Part shown: positions 50,492 to 57,261 of the stretch, piece after piece
How positions within the stretch are numbered: the first letter of the stretch is position 1
Layout of the letters: every line of letters starts with the position of its first letter
Program-made: the position numbers and the translations under genes
Source of the DNA: Thiogranum longum
GTDB lineage: Bacteria > Pseudomonadota > Gammaproteobacteria > DSM-19610
Assembly (NCBI RefSeq): GCF_004339085.1
Contig: NZ_SMFX01000001.1
Location: 1,315,227-1,379,226, forward strand
Reading direction: 5' to 3'
DNA: 64,000 bases
The notes under the pieces: generated by a model
Databases searched by the model: none
Told to the model about the DNA's origin: nothing
Seen by the model: only the letters and a program-made list of their open reading frames with translations

Positions 50492-51136
50492 TTATAAAGC
50501 CTTCTTGCAGAAGTACCAGTCCACACATTCGTGGCCCTCGGCAAGCCTCGCTTCGGCAGCGTCGGCCGTTGCCGGAGGCGGGACGATAACCTTGTCACCT
50601 GGCTGCCAGCCTTCCGGTGTAGCCACGCCGTTGGCGTCCGATGTCTGCAGTGCTGTGACCAGGCGAATGAATTCGTCAATGGAACGACCGTTGGTCATGG
50701 GATAGTAGACCATTGCACGTAACACACCCTTGTCATCGATAATAAAGGTGGCACGCACGGCAGAAGTGTCGGCCGCGCCGGGATGGATCATTCCGTAGGT
50801 CTTTGCCACTTTCATATCGAGGTCGGCGATGATCGGGAACGGAATGTCTACATCGAATTTCTCCTTGATATTGCGTACCCAGGCAAGATGCGAGTAGTGG
50901 CTGTCGATAGACAGGCCCAGCAATTCGGTGTTGATCTTCCGGAACTCGCCATGACGCTTCGCGAAGGCCATGAACTCGGTGGTGCACACAGGAGTAAAGT
51001 CCGCCGGGTGTGAAAACAGCACCAGCCACTTGCCCTTGTAGTCGGACAGCGTTTTCTGTCCATGGGTGGTGAGGGCATTAAAATCCGGTGCCGGTTCGTT
51101 GAGGCGCGGCATATGCATTTCAGTTGCTTCAGTCAT
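50492..51136 (-). CDS. Peroxiredoxin (Prx6/1-Cys-like class)
   Basis: This 214-residue AhpC/TSA-family thiol peroxidase has the peroxidatic cysteine in HPADFTPVCTTEFMAF, near residue 50. The C-terminal 1-Cys-Prx domain contains YPMTNGRSIDEFIRLV, and two more cysteines lie close to the C terminus (GHECVDWYFCKKAL). It reduces hydrogen peroxide and organic peroxides, with thioredoxin or glutathione as likely reductants. An ATAG-N7-CTAT palindrome lies 112 bp upstream at 51248-51262, matching one between oxyR and the cytochrome c peroxidase gene. OxyR control is therefore likely. Confidence 0.92.
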   Translation of the reverse strand: MTEATEMHMPRLNEPAPDFNALTTHGQKTLSDYKGKWLVLFSHPADFTPVCTTEFMAFAKRHGEFRKINTELLGLSIDSHYSHLAWVRNIKEKFDVDIPFPIIADLDMKVAKTYGMIHPGAADTSAVRATFIIDDKGVLRAMVYYPMTNGRSIDEFIRLVTALQTSDANGVATPEGWQPGDKVIVPPPATADAAEARLAEGHECVDWYFCKKAL

Positions 51137-51247: not shown

Positions 51248-51262
51248 ATAGCCAATGGCTAT
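51248..51262 (-). promoter_or_regulatory. Putative OxyR half-site upstream of the peroxiredoxin gene
   Basis: ATAGCCAATGGCTAT is a perfect palindrome fitting ATAG-N7-CTAT, the outer bases of the OxyR 15-bp unit. A second, weaker AT-rich unit may lie one 22-bp period away (51226-51240). The same form occurs at 54367-54381. Confidence 0.5.
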
Positions 51263-52568: not shown

Positions 52569-53372
52569 CTACGAGTGATCAGTCTCAGGATTAAGCGGTT
52601 TATGGACCGGCCTCTCTTCTGCCCACAGCAGGGTTTTATAATCAAAGCTTTTTACGATAGTCGGTTTGACGATTTCAAAATAAGGGGAGACATCGAAATC
52701 CCTGGGTGTATACAAGCTGTGGTGCCTGATGTGAAGGTATTCCCTTGTGTAATAGCTTCCTCTCAGGCCCGCTACTTTCCTGACTTTTATTTTTGGCAAA
52801 ATCGGGTAGCCAATCAGTTGGTAAGCCTGTGCAATCAGCGTGGAACAGATAGCGCGGGTAGGATCACCACTGCCGAGAGCCAGTAAACGCCTGCGCCAAC
52901 GGACCGGTACGGGGGGATTGGGTAGCAGGTAACGCACCAGATCTATCACGTTTTTCAGGTCGTACTTTGCGCCAATGCTGTTGATTGCAAAGTGCACCAC
53001 TTTTTCGAGGTCTTTCGGGTCCAGGTTCACCGGGCGACAAATGCGGGTATTGAACCCGGCATACCTGGACAGGGGTACGGCAACGACTCCACTGGTCAGG
53101 TCAGCTTCGACCAGGGTGGCCGGCTCGGAGCCATCTTGAGGTGTAGGCAGTGCATCACCTACATAGAGTGCGGCATGTGACCAGGTGGACTGGGTGACGT
53201 ACTTGATGGCGGCACTGATTCTCAGATTGCCTTCTACCAGCAGAATGTCGCCTTTTTGCAGGCAGTTCTGCAACGCTTCCGGGTGAATGGCGGAAAATGG
53301 CTCATAGTTTTTTGACGGTTGCTTAAGGTATCGTGCCAGTAGTCCGCCCAGTTTTTCACCTAACCAGTTCAT
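52569..53372 (-). CDS. YiiX/YaeF-type permuted papain-like amidase (C92 family)
   Basis: This 267-residue protein has the permuted NlpC/P60 pattern. GDILLVEGNLRISAAIKYVTQSTWSHAALYVGD carries the His of the active site, and RAICSTLIAQAYQLIGYPILP around residue 190 carries the Cys. Relatives such as YiiX and YebB are predicted amidases or lipid hydrolases; the natural substrate is not established. No signal peptide is visible. It lies between the 7-TM gene and oxyR on the same strand, with 22 bp to oxyR's stop. Confidence 0.75.
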   Translation of the reverse strand: MNWLGEKLGGLLARYLKQPSKNYEPFSAIHPEALQNCLQKGDILLVEGNLRISAAIKYVTQSTWSHAALYVGDALPTPQDGSEPATLVEADLTSGVVAVPLSRYAGFNTRICRPVNLDPKDLEKVVHFAINSIGAKYDLKNVIDLVRYLLPNPPVPVRWRRRLLALGSGDPTRAICSTLIAQAYQLIGYPILPKIKVRKVAGLRGSYYTREYLHIRHHSLYTPRDFDVSPYFEIVKPTIVKSFDYKTLLWAEERPVHKPLNPETDHS

Positions 53373-53394: not shown

Positions 53395-54351
53395 TCAGCC
53401 GGCGGCGCTCGTTTTCCGTGTCTTGCGCAATCGGGGGCGTATGCAGCTCAGCTGTGAAGCTGCAATGGCCTCTTTTACGACGTCAATTACCCGGGGGCGA
53501 GGGAATGTTGCCCGCCAGGCCAGCGCCACAACGCGGCTGGGCGCCGGCTTGGTAAAGCGGCGGATCGCCAGCAAGCGTTGTGAGTAGCGATCTGCGCCAG
53601 CCGCAGTGCACGGCAGTACCGTCAGACCCATGCCAGAAGCGACCATATGGCGGATGGTTTCCAGCGAGCTGCCTTCTGCCGTGTATACGGGATTGCCCTC
53701 GCCGATGGCCCGGGGTGCACAGGCGGGGCAGGCTTCAATGACCTGGTCCCGAAAACAGTGGCCGGCGCCGAGCATCAGAATCGTTTCACCTTCCAGGTTC
53801 CCGGAGCGCAGGGTGTTCCGTGCTGTCAACGGGTGTGAGGCAGGCAGAAGAATAACAAAGGGCTCTTCGTACAGTGGCAGGGTGAGAATGTTCGGTTCAT
53901 CGAAAGGTAACGAGATGACGATGACGTCCAGGTCACCCTGCTTGAGTTTTTCCGCCAGCACCGCCGTGTAGTTTTCCTCCACGATAAGCGGCATTTCAGG
54001 TGCACGCTCGGACAGGTTCGGGATAAGGTCAGGAAACAGGTAGGGTCCAATGGTGAAAATAGCACCAATCCGTAGCGGGCCTGCCAACTGGTCACCTTCA
54101 CTGCGGGCCACCTGGCGGACTGACTCAACAGCTTCCAGTGCCTGTTGCGCCTTTTCAACGACGCGTTCACCCGCAGGCGTAATCCGGACCTCATGACTGG
54201 CTCGCTCGAATAGCGCGATGCCAAGCTCTTTTTCAAGCTTCTTTACCGCTATGCTGAGCGTTGGCTGGCTGACAAAGCACGAAGCTGCCGCGCGCCCGAA
54301 ATGCCGCTCCCGGGCAAGTGCGATCACATAACGCAGTTCGGAAAGGTTCAT
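53395..54351 (-). CDS. oxyR: Hydrogen peroxide-inducible regulator OxyR
   Basis: This 318-residue LysR-type regulator has an N-terminal winged helix (LSELRYVIALARERHFGRAA, then SQPTLSIAVKKLEKELG). The redox loop has Cys199 in LGAGHCFRDQ and Cys208 in VIEACPAC, the same positions as the E. coli disulfide pair. An additional Cys at 211 is unusual. ATG 54351 (MNLSELRYV) gives the family N terminus; the frame from 54402 adds 17 residues. It is divergent from a cytochrome c peroxidase gene, and the shared gap contains a 15-bp OxyR-like palindrome 16 bp before this start, which suggests autoregulation. Confidence 0.92.
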   Translation of the reverse strand: MNLSELRYVIALARERHFGRAAASCFVSQPTLSIAVKKLEKELGIALFERASHEVRITPAGERVVEKAQQALEAVESVRQVARSEGDQLAGPLRIGAIFTIGPYLFPDLIPNLSERAPEMPLIVEENYTAVLAEKLKQGDLDVIVISLPFDEPNILTLPLYEEPFVILLPASHPLTARNTLRSGNLEGETILMLGAGHCFRDQVIEACPACAPRAIGEGNPVYTAEGSSLETIRHMVASGMGLTVLPCTAAGADRYSQRLLAIRRFTKPAPSRVVALAWRATFPRPRVIDVVKEAIAASQLSCIRPRLRKTRKTSAAG

Positions 54352-54366
54352 ATCTCGGTTCCATTG

Positions 54367-54381
54367 ATAGGCGTTGGCTAT
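54367..54381. promoter_or_regulatory. Putative OxyR half-site between oxyR and the peroxidase operon
   Basis: ATAGGCGTTGGCTAT fits ATAG-N7-CTAT and resembles the palindrome upstream of the peroxiredoxin gene. It is 16 bp before the oxyR start and 79 bp before the peroxidase start, a location able to control both directions. Confidence 0.55.
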
Positions 54382-54459
54382 TACACCACTTGCTAAATCC
54401 AATTGGCAACCTCTTTAGACCGGGTCTAGACTTGCCTTCAAGTCAAAGGAGGGCTTGAG

Positions 54460-55566
54460 ATGATAAAGAAACTTGCCATTGTGCTGGTATTCGGCAGTGT
54501 GGTGGGCGGCGCGTTAGCTGCACCACTGGGTCTGCCGCCTGTACCCGTCCCTGAGAGTAATCCACAGACACCGGAAAAAATCGCACTGGGCGACAAGTTG
54601 TTCCACGACGCCCGTTTCAGTGCCGATGGAAAAGTCAGTTGCGCCACCTGTCATTCACAGGCGAAGGCTTTTACCGACAACTTGCCGGTATCGAAAGGAT
54701 TCAATGGAATGACCGGTACCCGTAATGCGCCAACCGTCATCAACTCGGCCTACATGAAGACACTGTTCTGGGACGGTCGCGAACCGGACCTGGAAGGCCA
54801 GTCAAAACAGCCACCGATCAACCCGGTCGAGGGTGGTCTTCCGGATCATGGGCCGATCCTGGCTGTGATCCGCAAGGACAGTGATTATGTAGAGGCGTTT
54901 AAAGACGTCTTCGGTGTCGATGCCTCCACCATCAACATGGATCATGTCGCAAAGGCCATTGCCAGTTTTGAGCGCACGGTTGTGGCCGGCGATTCACCTT
55001 TTGATCGTTATTATTTTGCCGGTGACGAGAAAGCCATGACCCCGGAGCAGACCCGTGGGCTGGCTGTTTTTACCGGCAAGGGACGTTGTGTGTCCTGCCA
55101 CAGAATCGAACAGACGCAGGCGCTGTTTATGGATAACCGTTTTCATAACATCGGTGTCGGGTTCAAGAAGATTCGTGGCAAGGAAGCGCTGACGGCCGAG
55201 CAGTTCCTGCATGACAAGCGCAAGGGTGCGGATGTCGATGTGACTGTGCTGACAAGGCAGAACATGTCTGAGCTGGGTCGCTTTGCAGTGACGGAGAATA
55301 TCACCGAGGTTGGTGCTTTCAAGACGCCGACCCTGCGCAACATTGACAAGACCGGCCCCTACATGCACGACGGCAGTCTGGAAACACTGGCCGATGTGGT
55401 GGATTTCTATAACAACGGTGGACGGGTCAAGGAAACTGACCCGGTATCCGCTTTTCTGAGTGGCGGTATCCGCCCGCTCGACCTGAGTGACGACGAAAAA
55501 AGTGATCTCGTCGAATTTATGAAAGCGCTGACCAGTCCTGACCTGGACCGCTTCACCAAACGTTGA
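54460..55566 (+). CDS. Di-haem cytochrome c peroxidase
   Basis: This 368-residue periplasmic protein has a signal peptide ending near residue 20 (GGALA). Two CxxCH haem sites are visible: CATCH at residues 61-65 and CVSCH at 210-214. Conserved family blocks include KLFHDARFSADGKVSCATCH, RNAPTVINSAYMKTLFWDGR and VGAFKTPTLRNIDKTGPYMH. It reduces hydrogen peroxide to water with electrons from a small cytochrome or copper protein. AAGGAGGG provides a strong ribosome binding site six bases before ATG 54460. It heads an operon with a metallophosphoesterase and a mono-haem cytochrome, divergent from oxyR. Confidence 0.94.
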   Translation: MIKKLAIVLVFGSVVGGALAAPLGLPPVPVPESNPQTPEKIALGDKLFHDARFSADGKVSCATCHSQAKAFTDNLPVSKGFNGMTGTRNAPTVINSAYMKTLFWDGREPDLEGQSKQPPINPVEGGLPDHGPILAVIRKDSDYVEAFKDVFGVDASTINMDHVAKAIASFERTVVAGDSPFDRYYFAGDEKAMTPEQTRGLAVFTGKGRCVSCHRIEQTQALFMDNRFHNIGVGFKKIRGKEALTAEQFLHDKRKGADVDVTVLTRQNMSELGRFAVTENITEVGAFKTPTLRNIDKTGPYMHDGSLETLADVVDFYNNGGRVKETDPVSAFLSGGIRPLDLSDDEKSDLVEFMKALTSPDLDRFTKR

Positions 55567-55576
55567 GGAGAACGTC

Positions 55577-56650
55577 ATGAGCAACAACAGTCGTCGTAAG
55601 TTTTTAAAGCAGAGTGGCGCACTGCTGGCCGCCAGTACGCTTCCACTCACCATGGTGGAACTGGCGTTCGGCAAGGGCAGCGAGGACACGTTCACGTTCG
55701 CCTATATTTCTGATTCACACATTACCCAGATCAAGGGCAACAAATTTGTGCGCAACTGGGACCGTGGCCTGACTCGTGCGGTCGCGGAAGCGAACCTGCT
55801 GGACCCGCGCCCTGACTTCGTGTTTTACGGTGGTGACATTGCCCAGCTGGGCAAGCCGGAAGAAATCGATCATGGTCTGGAAATTCTCGGTGCCCTGCGT
55901 GGGAAAACACACTACGTTATGGGTGAGCACGATTACTACGTTGACCTCGGTGACTACTGGCGCAAACAACTGGGGCCGGACCATTACAGCTTCGACCACA
56001 AGGGCGTCCATTTTGTGGTGCTGAACAGTATTCTTACCCATGAAAGCTGGATGCATCAGAAATGGGATTCCGGTATGGATCGTATGAAGCAGATGGCAAG
56101 ACTGGATAACCCGAACGGCCAGCCTTTCATGGTCGGTGATGCGCAGCGCGACTGGCTGAAAAAAGACCTGGACAAGGTCAGCAAGGACACGCCGGTAGTG
56201 GTGTTCTCGCACTCGCCGCTTCAGAAGATCTACAAGGGCTGGAACTTCTGGACCGACGATGCCGAACAGGTGCAGGCACTGCTCAAGCCGTTCGACAAGG
56301 TGACCGTGCTGTATGGACACGTTCACCAGATACAGACCAACCAGATCGGCAATATCAGCTTCCATTCAGCCATGGCAACAGCATGGCCCTGGCCCTATCC
56401 GGCCACCTACCGGCAGAAGGCCAGCTACATGCCCAGGCTGACGGTCGATATGAACCGGGCCGACCCGTTCTTTGAGCGCGATGCAACCGGCTGGCAGTTT
56501 ATCGATGTCCACAGCGGGCGGGCGGATGTGAATTATATTCTGCCGGACAATACCAACCGCAAGGTCGTATTTGACGAGAAGGCCGGGCACCCGGTAGACA
56601 CGAAGTACCAGGAACCGGACAAGCGTATTCCCCCGCAGAAACACTTTTGA
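55577..56650 (+). CDS. Tat-exported calcineurin-like metallophosphoesterase
   Basis: This 357-residue protein has a twin-arginine signal (NSRRKFLKQSGALLAAS, residues 4-20). The metal-binding motifs of the calcineurin-like fold come in order: YISDSHI (Asp46, His48), FYGGDIAQLG, GEHDYY in place of the usual GNHD, VVFSHSPL and LYGHVH. Proteins of this group hydrolyse phosphate esters, but the substrate is unknown. Export by Tat implies folding and metal loading in the cytoplasm. It lies 10 bp after the peroxidase stop and 11 bp before the cytochrome gene, so it is probably part of that operon. Confidence 0.85.
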   Translation: MSNNSRRKFLKQSGALLAASTLPLTMVELAFGKGSEDTFTFAYISDSHITQIKGNKFVRNWDRGLTRAVAEANLLDPRPDFVFYGGDIAQLGKPEEIDHGLEILGALRGKTHYVMGEHDYYVDLGDYWRKQLGPDHYSFDHKGVHFVVLNSILTHESWMHQKWDSGMDRMKQMARLDNPNGQPFMVGDAQRDWLKKDLDKVSKDTPVVVFSHSPLQKIYKGWNFWTDDAEQVQALLKPFDKVTVLYGHVHQIQTNQIGNISFHSAMATAWPWPYPATYRQKASYMPRLTVDMNRADPFFERDATGWQFIDVHSGRADVNYILPDNTNRKVVFDEKAGHPVDTKYQEPDKRIPPQKHF

Positions 56651-56661
56651 AGGAGCAGGTG

Positions 56662-57078
56662 ATGATGAACAGAAAAATCAATCGTGCCCTGGCGGCGATT
56701 ACGTCCCTGTTGGTACTGGCACTGGCTTCACCCGCACAGGCGGATGAATTTACCAAAGAAGACCTTGCACGCTGGCAGCAGGAGTATATGACGGTAGTGA
56801 ACAAGGGCGAGAAACTGTTTCACGGCGGTCTGCCCAGTGTGAACACCGTGTCCTGTGACCAGTGTCATCCCAATGCCAGCAACACTCACCCGGAGACCTA
56901 CCCGAAATTTCAGCAACAGCTGGGTCGCGTGGCGGAACTGTGGGAGATGATTAACTGGTGTATCCAGAACCCGCTGGAAAGTGAACCACTGGCCGCGGAT
57001 GACCCGCGTATGATCGCCCTGCAGGCGTATATTGCCGAGGAGCGCAGAGGAGCGGCCCTGGAACCGGGAAAACACTAG
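56662..57078 (+). CDS. Small periplasmic mono-haem cytochrome c
   Basis: This protein of about 138 residues has a signal peptide (LAAITSLLVLALASPAQA) and one haem site, CDQCH at residues 65-69. The C-terminal helix contains DDPRMIALQAYI with a candidate axial Met117, and NWCIQNPLESEPL includes an extra Cys100. The C-terminal pattern resembles SoxX/SoxA/TsdA-type cytochromes. As the third gene of the peroxidase operon it is a good candidate electron donor to the di-haem enzyme. ATG 56662 and 56665 are both possible; AGGAG lies six or nine bases upstream. Confidence 0.85.
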   Translation: MMNRKINRALAAITSLLVLALASPAQADEFTKEDLARWQQEYMTVVNKGEKLFHGGLPSVNTVSCDQCHPNASNTHPETYPKFQQQLGRVAELWEMINWCIQNPLESEPLAADDPRMIALQAYIAEERRGAALEPGKH

Positions 57079-57095: not shown

Positions 57096-57174
57096 GTCAT
57101 TGCGAGCGCAGCGCGGCAATCTTTCTGGCCTGGTGCCAGATTTTGGGAGATTGCCGCGCTGCGCTCGCAATGAC
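57096..57174. repeat. Long perfect inverted repeat, family B copy 2
   Basis: Two 27-base arms (57096-57122 and 57148-57174) are perfect complements starting GTCATTGCGAGCGCAGCGCG. The spacer TTCTGGCCTGGTGCCAGATTTTGGG contains the reverse complement of the spacer core of copy 1 (10492-10592), so this copy is inverted relative to that one. It lies just after the cytochrome gene and could act as the operon's end hairpin. Confidence 0.88.
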
Positions 57175-57261
57175 AGTGAGTGCTTTCTCCGGTGGAGCTG
57201 TTCAGAGCAGTCGACTATGATGCGCCGGGTGAATTAACTCACCCGGCACCTGGTCCTGTTC

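Follow-up and report, generated by a model that had tools for sequence, protein, structure and literature searches.

MauG-type di-haem enzymes act, or have been proposed to act, on the products of neighboring genes. MauG itself serves tryptophan tryptophylquinone (TTQ) biosynthesis on pre-methylamine dehydrogenase, and for MbnH/MbnP and SACCP/MopE the precedent is the conversion of Trp to kynurenine (PMC3621798). CorB/CorA likewise joins a di-haem enzyme to a partner protein, and in the methanethiol oxidase operon mtoX-SCO1-mauG a MauG-type enzyme again has a neighboring partner (PMC5739008). Here we describe a related arrangement within a 64,000-nucleotide stretch of the complete 2.92 Mb genome of Thiogranum longum (contig NZ_SMFX01000001.1, positions 1,315,227 to 1,379,226; hereafter, the window): three consecutive genes for a di-haem c-type enzyme, a protein of the metallophosphoesterase fold (MPE) with a signal for twin-arginine translocation (Tat), and a mono-haem cytochrome c, divergent from oxyR (Table 1). 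What the sequence shows directly are the genes and their linkage, the export signals, the predicted ligands and the conservation of the operator. We interpret the system as a peroxide-linked periplasmic redox module, in which the MPE would be a redox-partnered metalloenzyme and the likely target of the MauG-type enzyme, and we give this interpretation a probability of roughly 40%. The superfamilies of all three proteins are known, as are operons joining MauG to a partner, and the trio under OxyR control has not been described previously in the literature searched. No description of the MauG-MPE-cytochrome trio was found in searches of the open PubMed Central (PMC) literature, and co-mention of metallophosphoesterase, OxyR and cytochrome was limited to Bacteroidetes work.

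To establish how constant the arrangement is, we used the MPE alone as a query and retrieved the best 80 of 570 relatives' loci, on which the locus counts rest. A mauG-type gene lies directly 5' of the MPE gene in 78 of the 80, the two misses (L116 and L126) being contigs that start inside or at the MPE gene; the cytochrome gene lies directly 3' in 79 (64 as open reading frame (ORF) matches and 15 read from the sequence), and at the only locus without it, L083, the contig ends inside the MPE gene. Spacing is also preserved. Between the mauG stop and the MPE Arg6 codon lie 25 nt in the window (median 26 nt, 78 loci), and between the MPE stop and the cytochrome Ala26 codon 89 nt (median 90.5 nt, 64 loci). 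The intergenic gaps in the window are 10 nt (di-haem/MPE) and about 11–14 nt (MPE/cytochrome), with Shine-Dalgarno-like sequence. Because of this close spacing and the conservation of the arrangement, the three genes are probably cotranscribed as a tight operon, as the original prediction had held. Trio loci carry the labels Gammaproteobacteria, Desulfobulbaceae, Arcobacter, Bdellovibrionaceae, Zixibacteriota and Acidobacteria; the three genes are inherited together in several phyla.

Beyond the trio, the composition of the loci varies. Among 20 further class-level MPE loci, the cytochrome gene follows in 19 (L156 and L160 included), the remaining one, L143, reaching a contig end, and a MauG-type enzyme adjoins the MPE in four (L142, L143, and the trio-type L160 and L161). 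At L148 a bacterial cytochrome c peroxidase (bCCP)-type di-haem enzyme adjoins the MPE-cytochrome pair, and at other class-level loci the pair is followed by cbb3 subunits or by a DUF1566-like gene (domain names assigned by eye). Rhizobial plasmids encode SCO, a cupredoxin-like protein, MPE and cytochrome, with a cbb3-type oxidase adjacent or nearby; on actinobacterial plasmids the MPE is paired with a cupredoxin, in one case accompanied by a Rieske gene and a gene for a molybdopterin enzyme; and one Methylocystis plasmid copy of the MPE has no annotated di-haem or cytochrome neighbors. The core is the MPE with its cytochrome, whereas the partners MauG, SCO/cupredoxin/cbb3, bCCP or DUF1566 change with the lineage. 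In the original prediction the role of a phosphoesterase in peroxide defence was not obvious; the MPE is no stray addition, and together with the cytochrome it is the component that varies least. A tree of MPE contexts (40 of 108 rows, six contexts, several forks left open and warnings of long branches) required 7 label changes, against a minimum of 5 and 20.5 after shuffling, which makes partner exchange around the MPE likely; the tree does not settle the order of exchanges. Two of the analyses rested on subsets, A1 on P0001 with 12 of the relatives found and A2 on 51 of 81 MPEs. With a matching MPE in 3 of 398 genomes of the phylum-wide sample, the MPE is not common; in the class sample, carriers number 37 of 369 genomes. 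Three further MPE neighborhoods were recorded: MPE paralogues of GEHD type (L051:7335-8599 and L052:7421-8676) whose next gene encodes a small cupredoxin bearing a CuA-like motif, CDIFCGDGH; a 445-aa apparent fusion, by eye, of a 5'-nucleotidase-type domain with a four-CxxCH cytochrome, adjoining an MPE-cytochrome-DUF1566 cluster (L151:7816-9153); and genes for SoxY, SoxZ and a c-type cytochrome beside the MPE-cytochrome pair on Sinorhizobium meliloti pSymA (L165:11077-12226).

The di-haem enzyme matches PF03150 with 184 bits, and its closest solved relative is MbnH (PDB 6e1c). Judged as a canonical bCCP, it has the two CxxCH motifs and the peroxide-site Gln and Glu, whereas the Met ligand of the electron-transfer haem is replaced by Tyr. 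This residue, Tyr317, aligns with the Tyr of MbnH 6e1c and with Met297 of MacA 3hq9 and is invariant in 79/79 di-haem homologues; Gln114 and Glu124 are kept in 76/76 and the inter-haem Trp104 in 74/76, the roles of these three being ones that we take from bCCP work. Because of its predicted Tyr axial ligand, in line with the Tyr-His haem ligation of MauG (PMC6405878), the enzyme is of the MauG/MbnH type and not a canonical cytochrome c peroxidase. Of its earlier description as a peroxidase with two CxxCH motifs, the motifs stand, and the peroxidase label, in its canonical sense, falls. The likeness to MauG extends from the predicted His/Tyr ligation and peroxide-site residues to the neighboring partner protein, although the partner here has a calcineurin fold and is not methylamine dehydrogenase. 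In the same way, MbnH/MbnP, SACCP/MopE and CorB/CorA share the combination of di-haem enzyme and partner, but their partners are unrelated to the MPE, and no copper link is shown here; an NCBIfam scan found no match to the MbnP model among the eight window proteins around the di-haem gene. The mtoX-SCO1-mauG operon also joins a metalloprotein gene to mauG, and SCO is joined to the MPE in other lineages; it differs in the fold of the metalloprotein (SBP56) and in lacking the extra SoxA-like cytochrome and the OxyR control of the present locus.

The product of the divergent gene carries the LysR helix-turn-helix (HTH) and substrate domains (PF00126 and PF03466), and its best NCBIfam match, PRK11151, leads the next family by 87 bits (241.8 bits, under the cut-off of 329). 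Its redox cysteines lie within GHC-FRDQVIEA-C, a C-x8-C spacing that is also that of Cys199/Cys208 in E. coli OxyR (E. coli numbering), in agreement with the earlier assignment of a divergent OxyR with this pair. The pair is retained in 16/16 full-length close OxyR homologues adjoining the trio, and distant OxyR-like genes carrying it adjoin the trio at two more loci (L097 and L110). In the shared intergenic region, the palindrome ATAGGCGTTGGCTAT matches ATAG-N7-CTAT exactly, starting 15 bases from the OxyR ATG and ending 78 bases 5' of the di-haem ATG. The full E. coli OxyR consensus is a double site. Compared with the E. coli-type regulon, the locus shares the Cys pair, the ATAG-N7-CTAT operator and a peroxiredoxin as second likely target, and differs in its single dyad and in a target operon that is new in the literature searched.

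The motif is not enriched genome-wide (13 copies against 32 for a reversed-pattern control), and this count is uninformative because it lies below its own control. Only two of the 13 copies lie outside a longer ORF or 5' of a true start, namely the oxyR/di-haem site and that of the peroxiredoxin gene 3.1 kb away; three of the other 11 are inside short ORFs (94, 128 and 173 aa) that are possibly not genes. We then searched relatives within 501 nt of a fixed di-haem codon. Among the 17 loci adjoining a close OxyR, 11 keep the operator 5' of the operon and three more have it with one mismatch; it is absent from the searched region in L079, L094 and L111, L094 having an exact copy farther upstream. 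Of the 53 other loci whose upstream sequence reaches 400 nt or more, two have it, both near relatives with the motif at the same distance, and so do two of eight loci with shorter upstream sequence; the chance rate is 0.0023 per region. The operator tracks the operon, as its seven spacer bases vary by species, its positions cluster at 142–149 or 180–220 nt, and in L084 and L086 it remains near mauG despite an OxyR start some 500–600 nt off. A chance palindrome was therefore rejected: the count is at chance, but the genomic position and the cross-species conservation are not, and the proposed operator has gained in support. The OxyR link of the original prediction is supported, but OxyR does not belong to the conserved arrangement: a close OxyR adjoins only 17 of 78 MauG-containing loci, and the trio occurs without OxyR in many lineages. 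OxyR was rejected as a defining part and is a local addition to the trio. Sigma-70-like promoter sites did not exceed shuffled expectation (3 found, mean 1.5). HTH-only LysR frames 5' of mauG were set apart from the OxyR counts; these LysR/OxyR-like mini-proteins (about 90–110 aa, no effector domain) are encoded co-directionally just 5' of the mauG-MPE-cytochrome operon or the MPE-cytochrome pair, and those of steroidobacter type have a common C-terminal Glu-Ile-Asn-Cys tail.

In the mechanism that we propose, the MPE and the SoxA-like His/Cys cytochrome, as electron carrier, would form the working core. In the source lineage and most of its relatives, the MauG/MbnH-type enzyme would use H2O2 to oxidise a protein partner, most likely the MPE, to mature it or to mend an oxidised residue or metal site much as MauG acts on pre-methylamine dehydrogenase, or else the MPE-cytochrome pair. 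The MPE would be folded and metallated in the cytoplasm and then exported by Tat, and in the source lineage OxyR would switch the module on in response to peroxide from the shared operator, jointly with the peroxiredoxin. We favor this interpretation because of the linkage, the MauG-type residues, the conserved operator, the distant OxyR-like genes at two more loci, the AhpC-TSA/Redoxin genes among the neighbors, the redox partners, the GEHD motif described below and the precedents for MauG-type partners. A plainer scheme of peroxide defence, along the lines of the original prediction, in which the cytochrome passes electrons to the di-haem enzyme, H2O2 is reduced to water and the MPE acts as a phosphatase under the same regulation but on a task of its own, seems to us unlikely, although it survives best among the alternatives. 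It would account for the operator and the co-regulated peroxiredoxin, for the intact peroxide-site residues and for the bCCP-type enzyme at L148, but it sits poorly with the MauG-type Tyr ligand, with a separate bCCP with Met-type motif encoded elsewhere in the same genome, and with the constant partner of the cytochrome being the MPE and not a peroxidase. The His/Cys haem predicted here would have a low potential, unlike the usual bCCP donors, and this too would count against the scheme.

The MPE matches PF00149 with 42.1 bits (cut-off 21.5), and the twin arginines of its Tat motif are present in 81/81 sequences. Where phosphoesterases have GNHD, its metal motif reads GEHD in 108/108 sequences, paralogues included, as also in MPE proteins of Burkholderia, Streptomyces and Mycobacteroides. 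Glu117 aligns with the Asn of the GpdQ motif; PDB 2hyo is the N97A mutant of the relative Rv0805. Among ten other PF00149 loci of the same genome, two have GNHD, and for the other eight the plus-strand ORFs yielded no G[NE]H[DE]. The earlier label of metallophosphoesterase is sound as to fold and Tat export, and departs from the evidence at the metal motif. It is improbable that the MPE is simply a phosphatase or phosphodiesterase of the periplasm, its gene travelling by chance with those of two haem proteins: the PF00149 fold, the other metal-ligand positions and the closest fold match, GpdQ (Z 20.8; Rv0805 and purple acid phosphatases also match), speak for it, whereas the invariant GEHD, the strict linkage, in many lineages, of its gene to those of electron carriers and scores far under the cut-offs of the CpdA and SpdA equivalogs (29.8 and 27.8 bits; cut-offs 225 and 400) speak against it. 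Tat export and electron-carrier partners further distinguish the MPE from GpdQ, Rv0805 and the purple acid phosphatases, and it is probably not a plain phosphatase.

The cytochrome shares PF21342 (48.9 bits) and a predicted Cys haem ligand with SoxA and TsdA. Its Cys99 is invariant (86/86) and aligns with TsdA Cys96 (chain numbering) and with the Cys of both SoxA domains. In TsdA the equivalent residue, Cys123, ligates the haem, and the active-site, thiosulfate-binding residues are Arg109, Arg119 and Ser127 (PMC4423706); with the numbering offset inferred from Cys123, these three correspond to Gln85, Met95 and Pro103 here, and SoxA domain 1, which the protein resembles, likewise has Met at the second position. 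Since the thiosulfate-binding residues are replaced, this one-haem protein is probably an electron-transfer His/Cys cytochrome and not a thiosulfate enzyme, which lends support to the electron-transfer role first suggested for it. It scores 46.2 bits with the SoxA NCBIfam model, under the cut-off of 110. It is very improbable that the trio serves sulfur oxidation, in which the SoxA-like cytochrome would conjugate thiosulfate and the MPE would hydrolyse the product as SoxB does: despite the SoxA/TsdA domain with its Cys ligand, SoxYZ near the MPE in Sinorhizobium, rhodanese among the neighbors and SoxB in 14/16 trio-type class genomes against 131/332 MPE-less genomes (kinship ignored), the TsdA residues are replaced, all MPE carriers together (19/37 against 131/332) do not differ significantly, and of the 36 trio genomes examined across phyla (36 of the 80 loci), 21 gave no SoxB, methanotroph and steroidobacter ones among them. 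Because SoxB is present in only 15/36, the module does not require Sox, and membership of the Sox pathway was rejected. In a survey of 135 of 139 direct neighbors (four downstream ones omitted for size), AhpC-TSA/Redoxin and rhodanese were the commonest Pfams, tied at 5 members each, in small numbers and from related species.

Several observations weigh against a peroxide-linked module with the MPE as MauG-type target. Scores stay under the curated cut-offs for MauG, MbnH and OxyR: the di-haem enzyme reaches 213 bits with TIGR03791 (MauG equivalog, cut-off 444) and 261.6 with TIGR04039 (MbnH, cut-off 363), which also sets it apart from both, and the five neighboring di-haem enzymes scanned from other MPE loci all fall under the two equivalog cut-offs. 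Because the remaining calcineurin metal ligands are retained, the MPE may still be a hydrolase; fold searches with it return phosphoesterases only, and its AlphaFold model has a modest mean predicted local distance difference test (pLDDT) score of 65.9, its core being mostly 70–90. No MPE Trp is both exclusive to and universal among MauG-linked members, Trp163 being missing in four distant ones and Trp225 occurring also in some MauG-less ones, and a MauG-specific Trp was accordingly rejected as proof of modification. Finally, MPE-cytochrome pairs without MauG exist, so that not every MPE needs MauG, and no residue of the MPE serves as a marker of MauG dependence. Taken together, the observations of the original prediction are confirmed and its interpretation is partly supported.

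Table 1. Features of the locus and of related loci (window positions, unless preceded by a locus number).
Feature	Position	Strand or location	Remarks
oxyR ORF	53395-54351	minus	ATG at 54351, the homologue start position; stop 53395
Di-haem c enzyme, MauG/MbnH-type	54460-55566	plus	two CxxCH; Sec-type signal peptide by eye; Tyr317 predicted axial ligand
MPE (calcineurin-like metalloprotein)	55577-56650	plus	PF00149; Tat motif of SRRKFLK type; GEHD metal motif
Mono-haem cytochrome c, SoxA/TsdA-domain type	~56665-57078	plus	ATG 56662 or 56665; PF21342; Cys99 predicted second haem ligand
OxyR-type operator ATAG-N7-CTAT	54367-54381	intergenic, between divergent genes	exact match
Possible sigma-70-like promoter TTGGCA-18-TAGACT	54403-54432	plus	just 3' of operator; consensus scan 9/12
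Second ATAG-N7-CTAT	51248-51262	intergenic	5' of peroxiredoxin gene; probably in the same OxyR regulon
Peroxiredoxin, AhpC/TSA with 1-Cys Prx C-terminal domain	50492-51136	minus	PRK13189 309 bits (cut-off 211); PF00578, PF10417
HTH-only mini-proteins	L100:5373-5687, L102:5354-5686, L105:5411-5740, L113:5319-5750, L117:5369-5695, L095:1382-1891, L049:6952-7284		

Two other elements flank the locus. A C92-family permuted papain-like amidase (YaeF/YiiX type) is encoded at 52569-53372, immediately 3' of oxyR. A palindromic repeat lies 3' of the operon at 57096-57180, with GTCATTGCGAGCGCAGCG arms about 61 bp apart; its 18-base core has 71 genome copies against 0 for the reversed control, in the manner of a repetitive extragenic palindromic (REP) or miniature inverted-repeat transposable element (MITE)-like element.

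A broader proposal, which we regard as doubtful, is that the GEHD calcineurin-fold proteins form a wide family that is not one of phosphatases: its members would be redox metalloenzymes, exported from the cytoplasm, each donating electrons to a cytochrome or cupredoxin dedicated to it. Within a single branch, the active site would be built or repaired by a MauG-type enzyme with H2O2, and peroxide would then be both the signal, through OxyR, and the substrate of cofactor building. The system is present in tractable organisms, including Sinorhizobium meliloti (the MauG-less pSymA pair), Methylocystis, Steroidobacter and Thiohalobacter, of which T. thiocyanaticus carries the trio (L074). If the proposal is true, a family now universally annotated as 'metallophosphoesterase' would represent a new class of redox enzymes, and a further type of client would be added to the MauG family.

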